Shown here: piece after piece, positions 14,996-28,559 of the stretch
How positions within the stretch are numbered: position 1 is the stretch's first letter
Layout: the number at the start of each line of letters is the position of its first letter
Origin: Sideroxydans sp.
Lineage (GTDB): Bacteria > Pseudomonadota > Gammaproteobacteria > Burkholderiales > Gallionellaceae
NCBI GenBank assembly: GCA_028707175.1
Contig: JAQTUV010000003.1
Span: 124,001 to 188,000, forward strand
Length of the DNA: 64,000 bases
Reading direction: 5' to 3'
The notes under the pieces: model-generated
Database searches by the model: none
Told to the model about the DNA's origin: nothing
Seen by the model: the letters and a program-made list of their open reading frames with translations, nothing else
Position numbers and translations under genes: made by a program

Positions 14996-15094
14996 TTCCC
15001 TCCCCCATGCAGGGGGAGGGCTAGGGTGGGGGTAGAAGCTATGAGTCGCAACGAGTCTACCCCCATCCTCACCTTCCCCCTGCAAGGGGGAAGG
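14996..15094. repeat. Palindromic repeat pair, type B (hoxU-hoxY gap)
   Basis: Two GC-rich hairpins lie head to head. At 14996-15020 a CCCTCCCCC/GGGGGAGGG hairpin is followed by CTAGGGTGGGGGTAGA. After 19 bases the inverse runs from TCTACCCCCATCCTCACC to a CTTCCCCC/GGGGGAAG hairpin at 15074-15094. The unit resembles REP/BIME elements: a palindrome plus an asymmetric GGGTGGGGGTAGA tail. It could form strong stem-loops in mRNA between hoxU and hoxY and might set relative subunit levels. Confidence 0.85.
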
Positions 15095-15138
15095 AACTGG
15101 TTTGGCTGTACTCAACAATCATTTGGGAAATTCTCAAT

Positions 15139-15690
15139 ATGAATGCTCCCGTAAAACCAAAACTGCGCATCGCCACCACCTCGCTCGCAGGGTGTTTTGG
15201 CTGCCACATGTCCATCTTGGATATCGATGAGCGCTTGTTCCCTTTGCTGGAACTAGTCGAGTTCGACCGTTCACCACTGACTGACATCAAACATTGCGGG
15301 CCATGCGACATCGGTCTAGTCGAAGGCGGCATCTGCAACGCGGAGAACGTGCACGTGCTGCGCGAGTTCCGCAAGAACTGTAAAGTCCTCATTGCTATAG
15401 GCGCCTGTGCCATCAATGGTGGTCTTCCCGCACAACGTAATCACCTGGATCTGAGTAGCTGCCTGACCGAGGTATATCTCACCGAGCCAGGGCTTGTGCA
15501 TGGGCACATCCCGAACGACCCTGAGTTGCCGCTCCCCTTGGACAAGGTGCACCCATTACATGAAGTAGTGAAGATCGACTACTTCATCCCCGGTTGCCCA
15601 CCTTCGGCGGATGCCATCTGGAAATTCTTGACAGACCTCATCGCGGGTAAGACACCTGAGTTGGGACATGGGTTGATTAAATATGATTGA
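15139..15690 (+). CDS. hoxY: NAD-reducing hydrogenase small subunit HoxY
   Basis: This 183-aa small [NiFe]-hydrogenase subunit carries the proximal [4Fe-4S] cluster. Ligands visible: C19 and C22 in AGCFGCHMS, the Cys in IGACAINGG and the Cys in PGCPPSAD. The short form without extra medial/distal cluster domains and without a Tat signal fits the soluble group 3d enzyme. Its stop is followed after 10 bases by a lipoprotein gene rather than directly by hoxH, which is unusual. Confidence 0.96.
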   Translation: MNAPVKPKLRIATTSLAGCFGCHMSILDIDERLFPLLELVEFDRSPLTDIKHCGPCDIGLVEGGICNAENVHVLREFRKNCKVLIAIGACAINGGLPAQRNHLDLSSCLTEVYLTEPGLVHGHIPNDPELPLPLDKVHPLHEVVKIDYFIPGCPPSADAIWKFLTDLIAGKTPELGHGLIKYD

Positions 15691-15700
15691 AGGTGTGCAA

Positions 15701-16195
15701 ATGAAACAGTGCGAATGGAGGTGGCTATTGGTATTGCGTCATTTTTTTCCTTTGATGCTGATGTTCGCGCTTTCTGCATGCCACGAAGAAATGTCTCCAT
15801 TGACTAGTGGCGAACTGTCTTATGATGTCCAAAGCGGTGGCTTTATCAATAAGGAGCTTTCATCTAATCAGCTGCAGGAACTTGCAGTGTGGCTGAAAAA
15901 GCACAGTGATGACTGGAGAGGTTGTTATGCAACTTATTCTCAACTTTCTATATTTAGCCTCTCCCTGAAACATGCAAATGGGAATTCTAGTTTTGTGACA
16001 TTGCTCAAATTTGAAAACACAAGTCGCACATTAATGGCGAGACATCTGGATGGAAGCAATATGAATGATCAGCGATGTGCTTTGCTGAGTGTTACAGAAG
16101 AAGACATAAATGCATTGCGAGTCTTATTGCCGCTTGAGAACCTTTCCGAACCTGAATTTGACAAGCCATCAGCACTTAAATATTTTTTGCAATGA
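15701..16195 (+). CDS. Predicted lipoprotein of unknown function inside the hox operon
   Basis: This 164-aa protein is not recognised. The N-terminus has a charged/hydrophobic signal and a lipobox LSAC with Cys27, so it should be lipidated and exported, whereas all surrounding hydrogenase subunits are cytoplasmic. Three more cysteines (one in RGCYATYS, one in DQRCALLS, plus Cys4) are present. I start at the ATG at 15701 because AAGGTG lies just upstream; an ATG at 15683 overlaps hoxY. Base composition is visibly richer in A/T than hoxY and hoxH. The stop overlaps the hoxH start (ATGA), so it is translationally coupled to hoxH. Confidence 0.75.
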   Translation: MKQCEWRWLLVLRHFFPLMLMFALSACHEEMSPLTSGELSYDVQSGGFINKELSSNQLQELAVWLKKHSDDWRGCYATYSQLSIFSLSLKHANGNSSFVTLLKFENTSRTLMARHLDGSNMNDQRCALLSVTEEDINALRVLLPLENLSEPEFDKPSALKYFLQ

Positions 16196-17700: not shown

Positions 17701-17789
17701 GTCTACCCCCACCCTAGCCCTCCCCCTGCATGGGGGAGGGAACATGGCTCCTTCCCCCATGCAGGGGGAAGGTTGGGATGGGGGTAGAC
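17701..17789. repeat. Palindromic repeat pair, type B, with terminal inverted repeats (left of DUF559 gene 1)
   Basis: This 89-base element begins GTCTACCCCC (17701-17710) and ends GGGGGTAGAC (17780-17789), a perfect 10-base terminal inverted repeat. Inside are two hairpins (CCCTCCCCC/GGGGGAGGG and CCTTCCCCC/GGGGGAAGG) separated by AACATGGCTC. The DUF559 start codon is 5 bases after it. A nearly identical copy in the same orientation begins at 18141 on the far side of that gene. Confidence 0.9.
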
Positions 17790-17794
17790 GCTAA

Positions 17795-18157
17795 ATGGCC
17801 ACACGAATCGACACAGTGACAACTACCAGAGCCAGATCACTGCGAAGCAACATGACAGATGCTGAAAACTTGTTATGGCAACGACTCCGTTACAAGCAAC
17901 TCAATGGTCATCGCTTTCGCCGCCAGCATCCCATCGAAGGGTACATTGCAGATTTTGTATGTGTAGAGCAGAAGGTCGTGATCGAACTAGATGGCGGACA
18001 GCATCAACAGCAGGCCGTGTATGACAACCAACGAACTGTTGTAATGCAAGCACATGGCTGGCGAGTATTGCGCTTTTGGAACAATGATGTACTGAGTAAT
18101 ATCGATGGGGTCTTGTCTGAGATCGCAGATGAATTGGTGTTTCTACCCCCACCCTAG
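17795..18157 (+). CDS. DUF559 endonuclease-like protein, copy 1
   Basis: This 120-aa DUF559 protein is related to the Vsr/PD-(D/E)XK nuclease fold. The motif FRRQHPIEGYIADF with D53, followed by IELDGGQH with E64, D66 and H70, matches the expected acidic active site. RVLRFWNNDVL near the C-terminus is the other family hallmark. The last residues (VFLPPP and stop) are encoded by the left end of the downstream repeat, so gene and repeat are physically fused. It interrupts hoxH-hoxW and has no known role in hydrogenase assembly. Confidence 0.85.
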   Translation: MATRIDTVTTTRARSLRSNMTDAENLLWQRLRYKQLNGHRFRRQHPIEGYIADFVCVEQKVVIELDGGQHQQQAVYDNQRTVVMQAHGWRVLRFWNNDVLSNIDGVLSEIADELVFLPPP

Positions 18158-18281
18158 CCCTCCCCCTGCAAGGGGGAGGGAATATGGCTCCTTCCCCTTG
18201 AAGGGGGAAGGTTGCACCCGCAAGGGGTAGGCCGTGGTTGTACGGCGCTGAAGCGCCAACAACACATGCTCGGATGGGGGT
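18141..18281. repeat. Palindromic repeat pair, type B, carrying a 57-nt insert (right of DUF559 gene 1)
   Basis: This is the same element as at 17701, in the same orientation (TCTACCCCCACCCTAGCCC start, internal AATATGGCTC spacer). Its right half is split between GGTTG (ends 18214) and GGATGGGGG (from 18272). The two copies therefore flank the DUF559 gene as direct repeats, like the ends of a small composite unit. Confidence 0.88.
18215..18271. other. 57-nt hairpin insertion within a repeat
   Basis: Compared with the intact copy at 17701-17789, 57 bases are inserted in the tail of the second hairpin. The insert can fold as GTTGT-AC-GGCGC-TGAA-GCGCC-A-ACAAC: two 5-bp stems separated by a 2-nt left bulge and a single A on the right. 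The exact ends could shift by one or two bases if the ancestral repeat differed. No ORF or known element is recognised. Confidence 0.6.
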
Positions 18282-24710: not shown

Positions 24711-24814
24711 TCACCATCCCTCACCCCAACCCCTCTGATGAAACTACTAGCCATTCGACTAAGCACGATAATACCGTGCAAGTCGCTGGTTATCCCGCTT
24801 GCGGGCGAGGGGCT
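24711..24814. repeat. Palindromic repeat, type A, inverted and split by a 57-nt insert (hypB-hypF gap)
   Basis: The left part CCCTCACCCCAACCCCTCT (ending 24736) and the right part CCCGCTTGCGGGCGAGGGG (from 24794) together make one repeat in the opposite orientation to the hypB copy. It is split in the palindrome arm by 57 bases. Confidence 0.85.
24737..24793. other. 57-nt hairpin insertion within a repeat
   Basis: It sits exactly between CCCTCT and CCCGC of a type A repeat. It folds as CGACT-AA-GCACG-ATAATAC-CGTGC-A-AGTCG: two 5-bp stems, a 2-nt left bulge and one A on the right. Length and stem geometry match the insertion at 18215 although the sequences are unrelated. Confidence 0.6.
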
Positions 24815-24835: not shown

Positions 24836-26119
24836 ATGACACCACCAGACTGCGTCGAACACATCATCGAACTGGACCATCCCGTACCTTGTGTATTGGC
24901 GATGGGCGCTTGGTACAAAGACACGCTGTGCATCACTTCGGGACGGCAAGCTTTCATCAGCAAGTGCGTGGGCGACCTCGATACACCTGAGGCGTGTCAC
25001 GCACATGAGCGTACCGCGCGCGCCTTGCTTGAGTGGTTGGGTGACAAGCCTCAAGCCATTGCGCACGACCTGCATCCTGATTTCCATTCCAGTCGTTTCG
25101 CCGCACAGCTCGCCGCCGAACTGGATGTCCCCCTCATCGCCGTACAACATCATCACGCTCACATCGCCGCCGTGTGTGCCGAGCATGGAGTGAATGAACC
25201 CGTGCTGGGTTTGGCGCTGGATGGTGTGGGATTAGGTACGGATGGGACGGCGTGGGGCGGGGAGTTGTTGCTGGTTGATGGGAGTAGTAAGCCCCTCGCC
25301 CGTGGGCGGGAGAGGGGTTGGGGTGAGGGCTGGCAGGGTGAAACGCCAATCGAATTGAGTGGCACAAACCCTCATCCCCACCCCTTCCCCCGCCTGCGGG
25401 GGAAGGGAGCAGATACACATCATTCGTTCCAAAGTGAGGATGGTTTTCAGCGCATCGGCCATCTACGACCGATGCCTCTGCCCGGTGGCGATAAAGCTGC
25501 GCAAGAACCTTGGCGCATGGCGGCCTCCGTACTACATGAGTCTGGGCGTGGCGGCGAGATCGTTCGTCGTTATGCCGATGAGCCTGCTGCTGCAACAGTG
25601 ATGAACATGTTGCAGCGCGACTTCAATTGCCCGCGCACCTCCAGCATGGGAAGGGTGTTCGATGCTGCAGCAGGGTTGCTGGGTATTTGTCACAAGATGG
25701 AGTTCGAAGCACAAGCGGCCATCGCCTTGGAACAGGCTGCTACACGATATACATCGAGGTTACCCGCGCTACCGCAGGGGTGGAGATTGTCAGCAGAAGG
25801 CGAACTCGATCTGCTACCACTATTGAGCGCACTGACGGATATGCAAGATGCGGAGCAGGGCGCGGCACTCTTCCATGCAACGTTAGTCGAGGCGATAGCC
25901 GATTGGATAAAACAAGCAACTCAACAGACTGGCATCACAGTTGTCGCTTGTGGCGGTGGCTGCTTCTTCAATAAGCTATTGAGCACAGGCTTGCGTGAAC
26001 GCATGGATGCGATGGGCGTTAGAATGCTCAGATCCAAGAGATTGCTACCGGGCGACACCGCCATCGCATTAGGACAAGCTTGGGTAGCCACTAAAAACAT
26101 TCAGCACGGAGACAACTAA
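24836..26119 (+). CDS. hypF: Short HypF: carbamoyltransferase domain only, with repeat-encoded insertion
   Basis: HypF makes the carbamoyl group that becomes the CN ligands of the NiFe site and passes it to HypE. Full HypF (about 750 aa) has acylphosphatase, zinc-finger, YrdC and Kae1-like domains. This 427-aa protein has only the Kae1-like part: VQHHHAHIAAV (residues about 103-113), LALDGVGLGTDGTAWGGEL, and ACGGGCFFNKLL near the C-terminus. Short HypF1 proteins are known from Cupriavidus necator, in the same hypABFCDE position. Residues about 150-203 are an in-frame insertion made of two palindromic repeats. No clear ribosome binding site is seen. Confidence 0.9.
   Translation: MTPPDCVEHIIELDHPVPCVLAMGAWYKDTLCITSGRQAFISKCVGDLDTPEACHAHERTARALLEWLGDKPQAIAHDLHPDFHSSRFAAQLAAELDVPLIAVQHHHAHIAAVCAEHGVNEPVLGLALDGVGLGTDGTAWGGELLLVDGSSKPLARGRERGWGEGWQGETPIELSGTNPHPHPFPRLRGKGADTHHSFQSEDGFQRIGHLRPMPLPGGDKAAQEPWRMAASVLHESGRGGEIVRRYADEPAAATVMNMLQRDFNCPRTSSMGRVFDAAAGLLGICHKMEFEAQAAIALEQAATRYTSRLPALPQGWRLSAEGELDLLPLLSALTDMQDAEQGAALFHATLVEAIADWIKQATQQTGITVVACGGGCFFNKLLSTGLRERMDAMGVRMLRSKRLLPGDTAIALGQAWVATKNIQHGDN
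25290..25409. repeat. Inverted pair of type A repeats inside hypF
   Basis: The first copy (25290-25330, CCCCTCGCCC/GGGCGGGAGAGGGG plus GTTGGGGTGAGGG) and the second, inverted copy (25367-25409, CCCTCATCCCC tail plus CCTTCCCCCGC/GCGGGGGAAGG) face each other across 36 bases. They keep the hypF frame open and encode an Arg/Gly/Trp-rich then Pro/His-rich segment not found in HypF relatives I know. Confidence 0.88.
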
Positions 26120-28013: not shown

Positions 28014-28016
28014 CAA

Positions 28017-28058
28017 CTCCCCTCTCCCGCAGGCGGGAGAGGGGTAGGGGTGAGGGGT
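28017..28058. repeat. Palindromic repeat, type A (left of DUF559 gene 2)
   Basis: A perfect CCCCTCTCCCGC/GCGGGAGAGGGG hairpin is followed by TAGGGGTGAGGGGTG. It begins a few bases after the hypD stop. Confidence 0.88.
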
Positions 28059-28088: not shown

Positions 28089-28508
28089 ATGGAAGATTAC
28101 ACACCTCATCACCCCGAAAAACTGCCTGAAGACCTTAGAACATGGGCGAGGGAAATGCGTGTCGGGATGACGGATGCAGAAGCATTACTCTGGCGCTTGT
28201 TGCGTGATCGTCGTATCGAAGGTGCAAAGTTCAGACGGCAACATCCGATGGGGCGCTACATCTTGGATTTTTATTGTGTTAAGAAAAAGCTATGCATTGA
28301 GCTTGATGGTGGGCAGCATAGCGATGCAGCTGGATATGATGTGCAGCGAGACCAATGGTTGAACAAGCAAGGGATTCGTGTCTTGCGTTTTTGGAACAAC
28401 CAGATGTTGATGGAAACTGAATCTGTGATGGAGATGATTTACATGACGATCATTGAAACACCCTCTCGCCCACTGGCGGAAGAGGGGCGGGGGGAGGACT
28501 GTGAATAG
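28089..28508 (+). CDS. DUF559 endonuclease-like protein, copy 2
   Basis: This 139-aa protein is a paralogue of the gene at 17795: FRRQHPMGRYILDF (D60) and IELDGGQH (E71, D73, H77), then RVLRFWNNQML. I start at ATG 28089; a GTG at 28050 lies within the repeat and would add 13 residues. As in copy 1, the C-terminal codons (PSRPLAEEGRGEDCE) come from the flanking repeat. It separates hypD and hypE, which are normally adjacent. The fold is nuclease-like; activity is unknown. Confidence 0.85.
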   Translation: MEDYTPHHPEKLPEDLRTWAREMRVGMTDAEALLWRLLRDRRIEGAKFRRQHPMGRYILDFYCVKKKLCIELDGGQHSDAAGYDVQRDQWLNKQGIRVLRFWNNQMLMETESVMEMIYMTIIETPSRPLAEEGRGEDCE

Positions 28509-28559
28509 GTATGCACAGGCCCTCATCCCTAGCCCTTCTCCCGCCTACGGGAGAAGGGA
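28458..28559. repeat. Two palindromic repeats (right of DUF559 gene 2, up to hypE)
   Basis: A degenerate copy (28458-28499, CCCTCTCGCCC/GGCGGAAGAGGG plus a GCGGGGGGAGG tail) overlaps the DUF559 3' end. An inverted copy (28519-28559, CCCTCATCCCTAG tail plus CCCTTCTCCCGC/CGGGAGAAGGG) ends 9 bases before the hypE ATG, where it may affect hypE translation. Confidence 0.87.

Follow-up and report, generated by a model that had tools for sequence, protein, structure and literature searches.

We analyzed a 64,000-nucleotide stretch of Sideroxydans sp. DNA (contig JAQTUV010000003.1, positions 124,001 to 188,000 of the forward strand; hereafter the window) that carries a small gene of the DUF559 family (PF04480), termed gene 1, set between two copies of a palindromic repeat. 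Comparison of this locus with DUF559 loci from other genomes indicates that these genes and their flanking palindromes probably constitute a selfish element of two parts, wherein a homing-like nuclease is paired with cognate repetitive extragenic palindrome (REP) ends. As read from sequence, this proposal draws on the association of gene and repeat, the specificity of enzyme clades for repeat types, the existence of sites that are filled in some genomes and empty in others, insertion in frame into conserved genes, and the fold of the enzyme. The package of nuclease and repeats looks like an overlooked kind of mobile element that underlies a common class of repeats in bacteria.

Gene 1 (17795..18157, forward strand, 120 aa) was assigned to DUF559 by its open reading frame (ORF), its Pfam match (E 6e-43), its invariant columns, and its fold. 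On its 5′ side is a type-B paired palindrome (17701..17789, forward strand, 89 bp) that is REPIN-like, contains two GC-rich hairpins, and is bounded by perfect 10-base terminal inverted repeats (TIRs), GTCTACCCCC and GGGGGTAGAC; its arms are complementary at 88% over 41 nt. The ATG at 17795 lies five bases past this element. A second type-B paired palindrome, oriented as the left copy and 96% identical to it over 56 nt, occupies 18142..18281 (forward strand), and the gene 1 stop codon TAG (18155–18157) falls within it. An earlier note on this DNA had described near-identical copies in the same orientation five bases before the gene and at its 3′ end, a stop codon supplied by the repeat, and perfect 10-base TIRs on the left copy, and all of this was borne out by our reading. 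Nested in the right copy, and splitting it, is another small palindromic element (approximately 18215..18271, no strand assigned); the final TIR bases of the right copy end at 18281, with boundaries placed by eye. This nested element reads CACCCGCAAGGGGTA..GCCGTGG.., and by eye similar stretches adjoin two other loci (L039 and L007).

In the 2.89-Mb genome that contains the window, the type-B arm has 99 strand-wise matches (at most three mismatches), whereas the reversed control sequence has none. Therefore, the presence of copies within 10 bp of both gene ends is very unlikely to have arisen by chance. Because the arms often form opposed pairs approximately 30 to 80 nt apart, as judged by eye, we regard them as REPIN-like genome-wide.

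The association was then quantified in several sets of DUF559 loci. The first set comprises 43 loci (L001–L043) from the same genus, family, or order (the near relatives being Sideroxydans and Gallionella), including both DUF559 genes of the window; L006 and L027 were removed because of short flanks, and four units located in hrpA (L015, L018, L020, and L026) were kept. The named loci are the best 80 of 562 by similarity to the query, from which L112, L114, L142, and L174 were removed and among which five with long downstream frames were kept. The phylum set combines 28 loci returned by a Pseudomonadota PF04480 search with 20 chosen by hand from the same list, including five in genomes without matches to the repeat pattern described below (G250, G147, G155, G193, and G304). 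Loci in which over 300 aa of open frame precede the DUF559 domain were counted apart (L017, L022, and L024 in the first set, 3/3 positive; six named loci, 5/6 positive; two phylum loci, 1/2 positive). Control ORFs of at least 90 aa came from simple ORF calls on twenty segments of 20 kb in genomes that have DUF559 genes. The hairpin stem threshold of 22 was fixed after inspecting the loci.

Within 150 bp, strong hairpins on both sides together with a shared repeat were found at 22/38 loci in the set from the genus and its near relatives, 46/70 in the named set, and 24/46 in the phylum set, compared with 0/289 control ORFs. The short controls (90–250 aa) likewise gave 0/108. At 250 bp the corresponding values are 24/37, 56/70, and 27/46, compared with 1/284, and when a shared repeat is not required, both sides carry hairpins within 150 bp at 24/38, 54/70, and 26/46 DUF559 loci compared with 9/289 controls. 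Both-sided hairpins with a shared repeat also occur within 250 bp at 17/28 DUF559 loci of Chloroflexota (28 of 30 loci having enough flank). Thus, the enrichment of palindromes beside DUF559 genes that the earlier note had proposed to look for is present. Chance bracketing of gene 1 was rejected on the basis of the arm matches (99 versus 0) and the control ORFs (0/289). Among solo genes, defined as DUF559 frames of up to 300 aa and counted here when they have a downstream repeat, the stop codon lies within that repeat (stem ±16 nt) in 61/143 cases (10/28, 25/58, 16/35, and 10/22), a value that has no control count.

The type of repeat follows the clade of the enzyme. We assigned repeat types and site names by visual inspection and built a protein tree from 44 sequences of the genus and its near relatives (excluding L006, L029, L030, L031, and L044), in which 19/41 inner branches are weak and the proteins are short. 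On this tree the repeat types require 11 changes, which is the minimum, compared with 29.9 in shuffles, and each type lies on one side of a branch. A label-free test with 865 pairs of loci at different sites, from which the same five loci and L250 were left out, gave a correlation with rho 0.61 (p 0.003). With 153 loci drawn from several phyla the correlation falls to 0.24, above all 500 permutations, and here shared ancestry is not removed. By our own tally, type-B repeats (at least three forward-strand matches) are present in 10/11 genus genomes with a type-B DUF559 gene and in 4/23 without one. Type C was found at six sites in 34 genomes, every one beside a type-C DUF559 gene, as expected for the ends of an element. 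Most repeats are dispersed and have no DUF559 gene beside them, and RAYT (REP-associated tyrosine transposase) genes likewise have mostly gene-free dispersed repeats. Given these gene-free repeats, and because DUF559 copies at the same locus mostly cluster on the protein tree, the gene is not a fast jumper.

A genome-level association was observed with the pattern CCCTCYCCCN{2,10}GGGRGAGGG, which was counted in 299 Pseudomonadota genomes that were also searched for PF04480. Genomes with weak Pfam matches (E above 1e-10) were scored as DUF559-negative (26 Pseudomonadota and 20 Chloroflexota genomes). At least five copies of the pattern are present in 59/86 genomes with a strong DUF559 match compared with 12/213 others (odds ratio 37, p 3e-29); the reversed pattern reaches this number in 1/86 and 4/213, respectively. 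Phylogenetic dependence was handled by collapsing to genus (37/54 with DUF559 versus 7/127 without) or family (22/27 versus 6/48) and not by phylogenetic regression. For Chloroflexota the values are 41/50 and 26/101 (odds ratio 13), and of the 35 genomes that carry 36 named loci from several phyla, 30 contain the pattern. The DUF559 genomes of families f32, f39, and f56, and most of those of f68, have few copies of the pattern, and in some of these other palindromes adjoin the DUF559 gene.

Empty sites in relatives, which the earlier note had suggested seeking, were found. At one position in hrpA, 28 genus genomes include 10 that are filled, 16 that are empty, one with the repeat only, and one with a REPIN (by-eye reading was used for L255, L257, L261, L266, and L278, at which the script missed an anchor). 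The hyaB-hyaD site of gene 1 is filled in six genomes, and of 16 others that were read, 12 are compact and four have other repeats. The hypD-hypE site occupied by gene 2, a second DUF559 gene of the window, is empty in nine genomes, namely G024, which is the closest relative here, and G031, G012, G003, G004, G014, G017, G022, and G027; in G005, G011, G020, G023, and G030 it carries other palindromic families. When mapped onto a hydrogenase large-subunit tree (10 filled and 15 empty genomes), the hrpA state requires at least nine changes, seven of them forced by well-supported branches, and is distributed no better than when shuffled, although this is a single gene tree that may itself carry transfer. 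Filled hrpA alleles differ from the others only up to 60 nt from the insert on either side (p 0.001 for both; farther windows were not significant). Within this stretch the difference lies mainly in the five codons closest to the insert and extends to synonymous sites (p 0.003, the lowest value attainable with 300 permutations); G012 and G030 were scored as not filled in these comparisons. This signal fits short co-conversion tracts. The empty sites together with the enrichment lend support to the earlier hypothesis that nuclease and repeats form a small mobile unit, whose mobility we infer from the empty sites.

Separately, hyaB-hyaD and hypD-hypE are hot spots that hold several unrelated REPIN families across species of the genus (L088, L089, L093, L098, and L326–L330). 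The hrpA gene of G030 (L254) contains an in-frame REPIN, TGTAGGAGCGAGCTTGCTCGCGA, at the position used by DUF559 units, and we take this REPIN to resemble a Pseudomonas RAYT type. Site-specific homing alone was weakened as an explanation, since hyaB-hyaD, hypD-hypE, and hrpA all also carry other REPIN families.

Frames of 500 to 1500 aa with a central DUF559 domain proved to be host genes that carry an in-frame stretch of repeat, DUF559, and repeat. By Pfam, 12 such frames encode asparagine synthase, MmeI, a class I tRNA synthetase, HsdS (two), a DUF1156 protein, B12-dependent methionine synthase (two), HsdM, PriA, poly(A) polymerase, and Mfd, and HrpA is a further host. NCBIfam models exceed their cut-offs in four of five host frames (HrpA, valine-tRNA ligase [ValS], PriA, and asparagine synthase), and the MetH frame, in a cut locus, is below its cut-off. 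In the poly(A) polymerase locus (L156), only one of the two flanks has a clear repeat. No HINT splicing domain was detected in the 13 host frames (Pfam, E 1e-5), with introns not searched. DUF559 frames of 1000 to 1500 aa had been read as helicase fusions and used as a negative control; they are units inside host genes, and therefore this control was dropped.

The enzyme belongs with Vsr and the homing endonuclease I-Bth0305I, not with RAYT. Gene 1 protein matches PF04480 with 145.6 bits (gathering score 20.6), and a Pfam search with E up to 1 returned DUF559 at residues 10–114, MTES_1575, and one chance match, with no HUH/Y1 transposase domain. The residues D53, E64, D66, and H70, which the earlier note had singled out as a Vsr-like motif, are invariant in an alignment of 50 DUF559 sequences, as are E24 and W28. 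Against the curated Vsr model TIGR00632 the protein scores 20.1 bits, below the cut-off of 97.85; its kinship to Vsr is evident by profile and fold. The catalytic fold of EDxHD homing endonucleases is present, and I-Bth0305I (3R3P) is the nearest characterized mobile relative by profile and fold. The suggested parallel to REP elements and their transposases, with a different enzyme family, is consistent with this kinship and with the lack of an HUH/Y1 domain in the Pfam search. Identification as a defence gene was rejected, the PADLOC matches being only weak, and Enterotoxin-B matches in the kin search (E about 0.5 to 1) were attributed to chance.

In the mechanism that we propose, the palindromes, which are REPIN-like GC-rich hairpin pairs with TIRs, would form the ends of a small repeat-nuclease-repeat unit and would also persist as a larger population of nuclease-free copies, either by-products or targets. 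The Vsr/EDxHD-type PD-(D/E)XK endonuclease would recognize its own class of repeat and make its cut at the repeats, next to them, or at the empty site; donor-templated repair may then copy the whole unit, or the repeat alone, into the cut. The kinship with Vsr and I-Bth0305I makes such cut-and-repair (homing-like) copying likelier than HUH-type transposition. If the enzyme instead acted as RAYTs do, moving single-stranded or excised REPINs in trans from a mostly immobile, vertically inherited gene, then dispersed repeat populations, clustering of same-locus copies, and the rarity of gene 1 matches on plasmids (45/72,556 records) and phages (3/50,697) would be accommodated. We consider this unlikely, given the family and domain content of the enzyme and the presence of the whole unit within many unrelated genes.

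The patchy presence of the unit, its in-frame position in unrelated conserved genes, and the agreement between repeat type and enzyme clade also bear on a host function, by which a REP-processing or Vsr-like mismatch-repair nuclease would sit beside repeats in mutual regulation while another enzyme spreads them; these observations make that explanation rather improbable. A passive association, in which short orphan genes and REPs both collect in permissive spots, would suit the other REPIN families at the insertion sites, and genes kept near terminator-like palindromes could look alike. With no control ORF, short ones included, showing both-sided hairpins and a shared repeat, and with genome-level co-occurrence, clade specificity, and in-frame units to account for, we find it scarcely credible. 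Nevertheless, several observations count against the two-part selfish element. At 20/46 phylum loci, one or both flanks lack a strong hairpin within 150 bp, and no clear target-site duplication was found at hypF, hrpA, or hypD-hypE. The insertion sites also accept unrelated REPIN families and so may be merely permissive, and selection next to the insert could also generate the flank signal in hrpA. Fewer than five pattern copies occur in 27/86 DUF559 genomes, and at least five occur in 12/213 genomes without strong DUF559 matches and in 26/101 such Chloroflexota genomes. Separation is clean in only 4/13 families that hold both kinds of genome, with several others nearly separate. Finally, the published in vivo data on DUF559, in the portions available, concern a methylation-linked phenotype.

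Among known systems, the best reading is that the element works like RAYT/REP yet is unrelated to it, and we class the DUF559-repeat system as a variant of the RAYT/REP kind; if enzyme-driven mobility were proved, DUF559 elements would merit a class of their own. In both systems the palindromes are paired and numerous, cognate repeats enclose an enzyme gene, and the repeat type follows the enzyme clade. Unlike the HUH/Y1 enzyme RAYT (TnpA_REP), the DUF559 enzyme is a Vsr-like PD-(D/E)XK protein, its repeats resemble CCCTCYCCC..GGGRGAGGG without a conserved GTAG tag, and whole units lie in frame within genes. GTAG or CTAC occurs within 16 nt of the hairpin in 58/346 repeat copies, although type-B ends do have the tag. 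Rickettsia palindromic elements are also in-frame palindromic insertions in protein genes, but they are not known to carry a nuclease. Inteins similarly place a nuclease domain in frame in conserved proteins, whereas DUF559 units lack a HINT domain at the Pfam threshold given above. With I-Bth0305I the element shares profile, fold, patchy presence at a conserved site, and possibly short co-conversion tracts, but DUF559 is bracketed by REPs with a dispersed population and has no intein domain around it (introns not searched). The TIRs of the type-B element recall insertion sequences and miniature inverted-repeat transposable elements (MITEs). The fold is shared with Vsr and Caulobacter VsrA, whereas DUF559 is here tied to repeats. 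RAYT REPs have the GTAG tag beside the REP (PMC8266576), and Caulobacter VsrA itself contains DUF559 (PMC12907096). In titles, the beginnings of abstracts, and passages of mostly openly accessible literature, no link between DUF559 or ycjD and palindromic repeats was found.

A broader proposal, which we advance tentatively as a real possibility, is that DUF559 elements form, in their own right, a widespread class of selfish DNA whose palindromic ends are both targets and MITE-like offspring of a Vsr/EDxHD homing-type nuclease, that they generate CCCTCYCCC..GGGRGAGGG REPs in many phyla and invade conserved genes in frame without splicing, and that Escherichia coli ycjD is a relict or resident member. 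REPs rank with the most frequent repeats in bacteria, and to our knowledge RAYT is the only enzyme tied to them. If the proposal is true, a second, unrelated enzyme family would serve another widespread REP class and explain repeats in many phyla, DUF559, which is still labelled as of unknown function in Pfam, would gain a function, and a nuclease with palindromic ends could settle in frame within HrpA, ValS, PriA, MetH, and similar proteins.

The proposal could be tested in E. coli K-12, wherein the DUF559 gene ycjD has its stop codon within a degenerate CCCTCTCCC repeat and a second repeat precedes fabI. A 49-nt query from the second repeat has matches in 5,375/5,426 E. coli genomes, at a median of 18 places each. 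Among 60 sampled records, copies of the ycjD-type repeat range from 1 to 29 per record. Because the sapF-fabI region is rearranged in both ycjD-lacking strains that were read, they offer no clean empty ycjD site.

Other features of the window involve related repeats. Gene 2 (28089..28508, forward strand, 139 aa by our own reading; Pfam E 3e-39 on the domain), between hypD and hypE, is the sole other PF04480 match in the genome and is bracketed by a different repeat family, with a type-A palindrome on its 5′ side (28015..28058, forward strand; from repeat search and sequence) and type-A paired palindromes on its 3′ side (28461..28555, forward strand; ends by eye). Repeat search also located a type-B paired palindrome at 14996..15095 (forward strand) that is dispersed and has no DUF559 gene; by alignment coordinates, the 200 bp surrounding it correspond to 21 bp in the close relative G024. 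Elsewhere in the genome (G000:C8:473477-473853), three type-B arms at an exact spacing of 177 bp suggest a tandem array of the element. Alignment with three relatives revealed a REPIN-bearing insertion within hypF (25282..25448, forward strand) that is missing in G024, G031, and G012. By eye, an element of approximately 55 to 60 nt, GATRRAACTACTAGCCATTCGACTAAG..stem..CAAGTCGCTGGTTATC, sits within REP hairpins at about 24734–24795 of the window and at L013, L034, L026, L045, and L049, and appears to be a repeat that targets another repeat. A 170-aa ORF at 15683–16195 lies directly upstream of the hydrogenase large-subunit gene.
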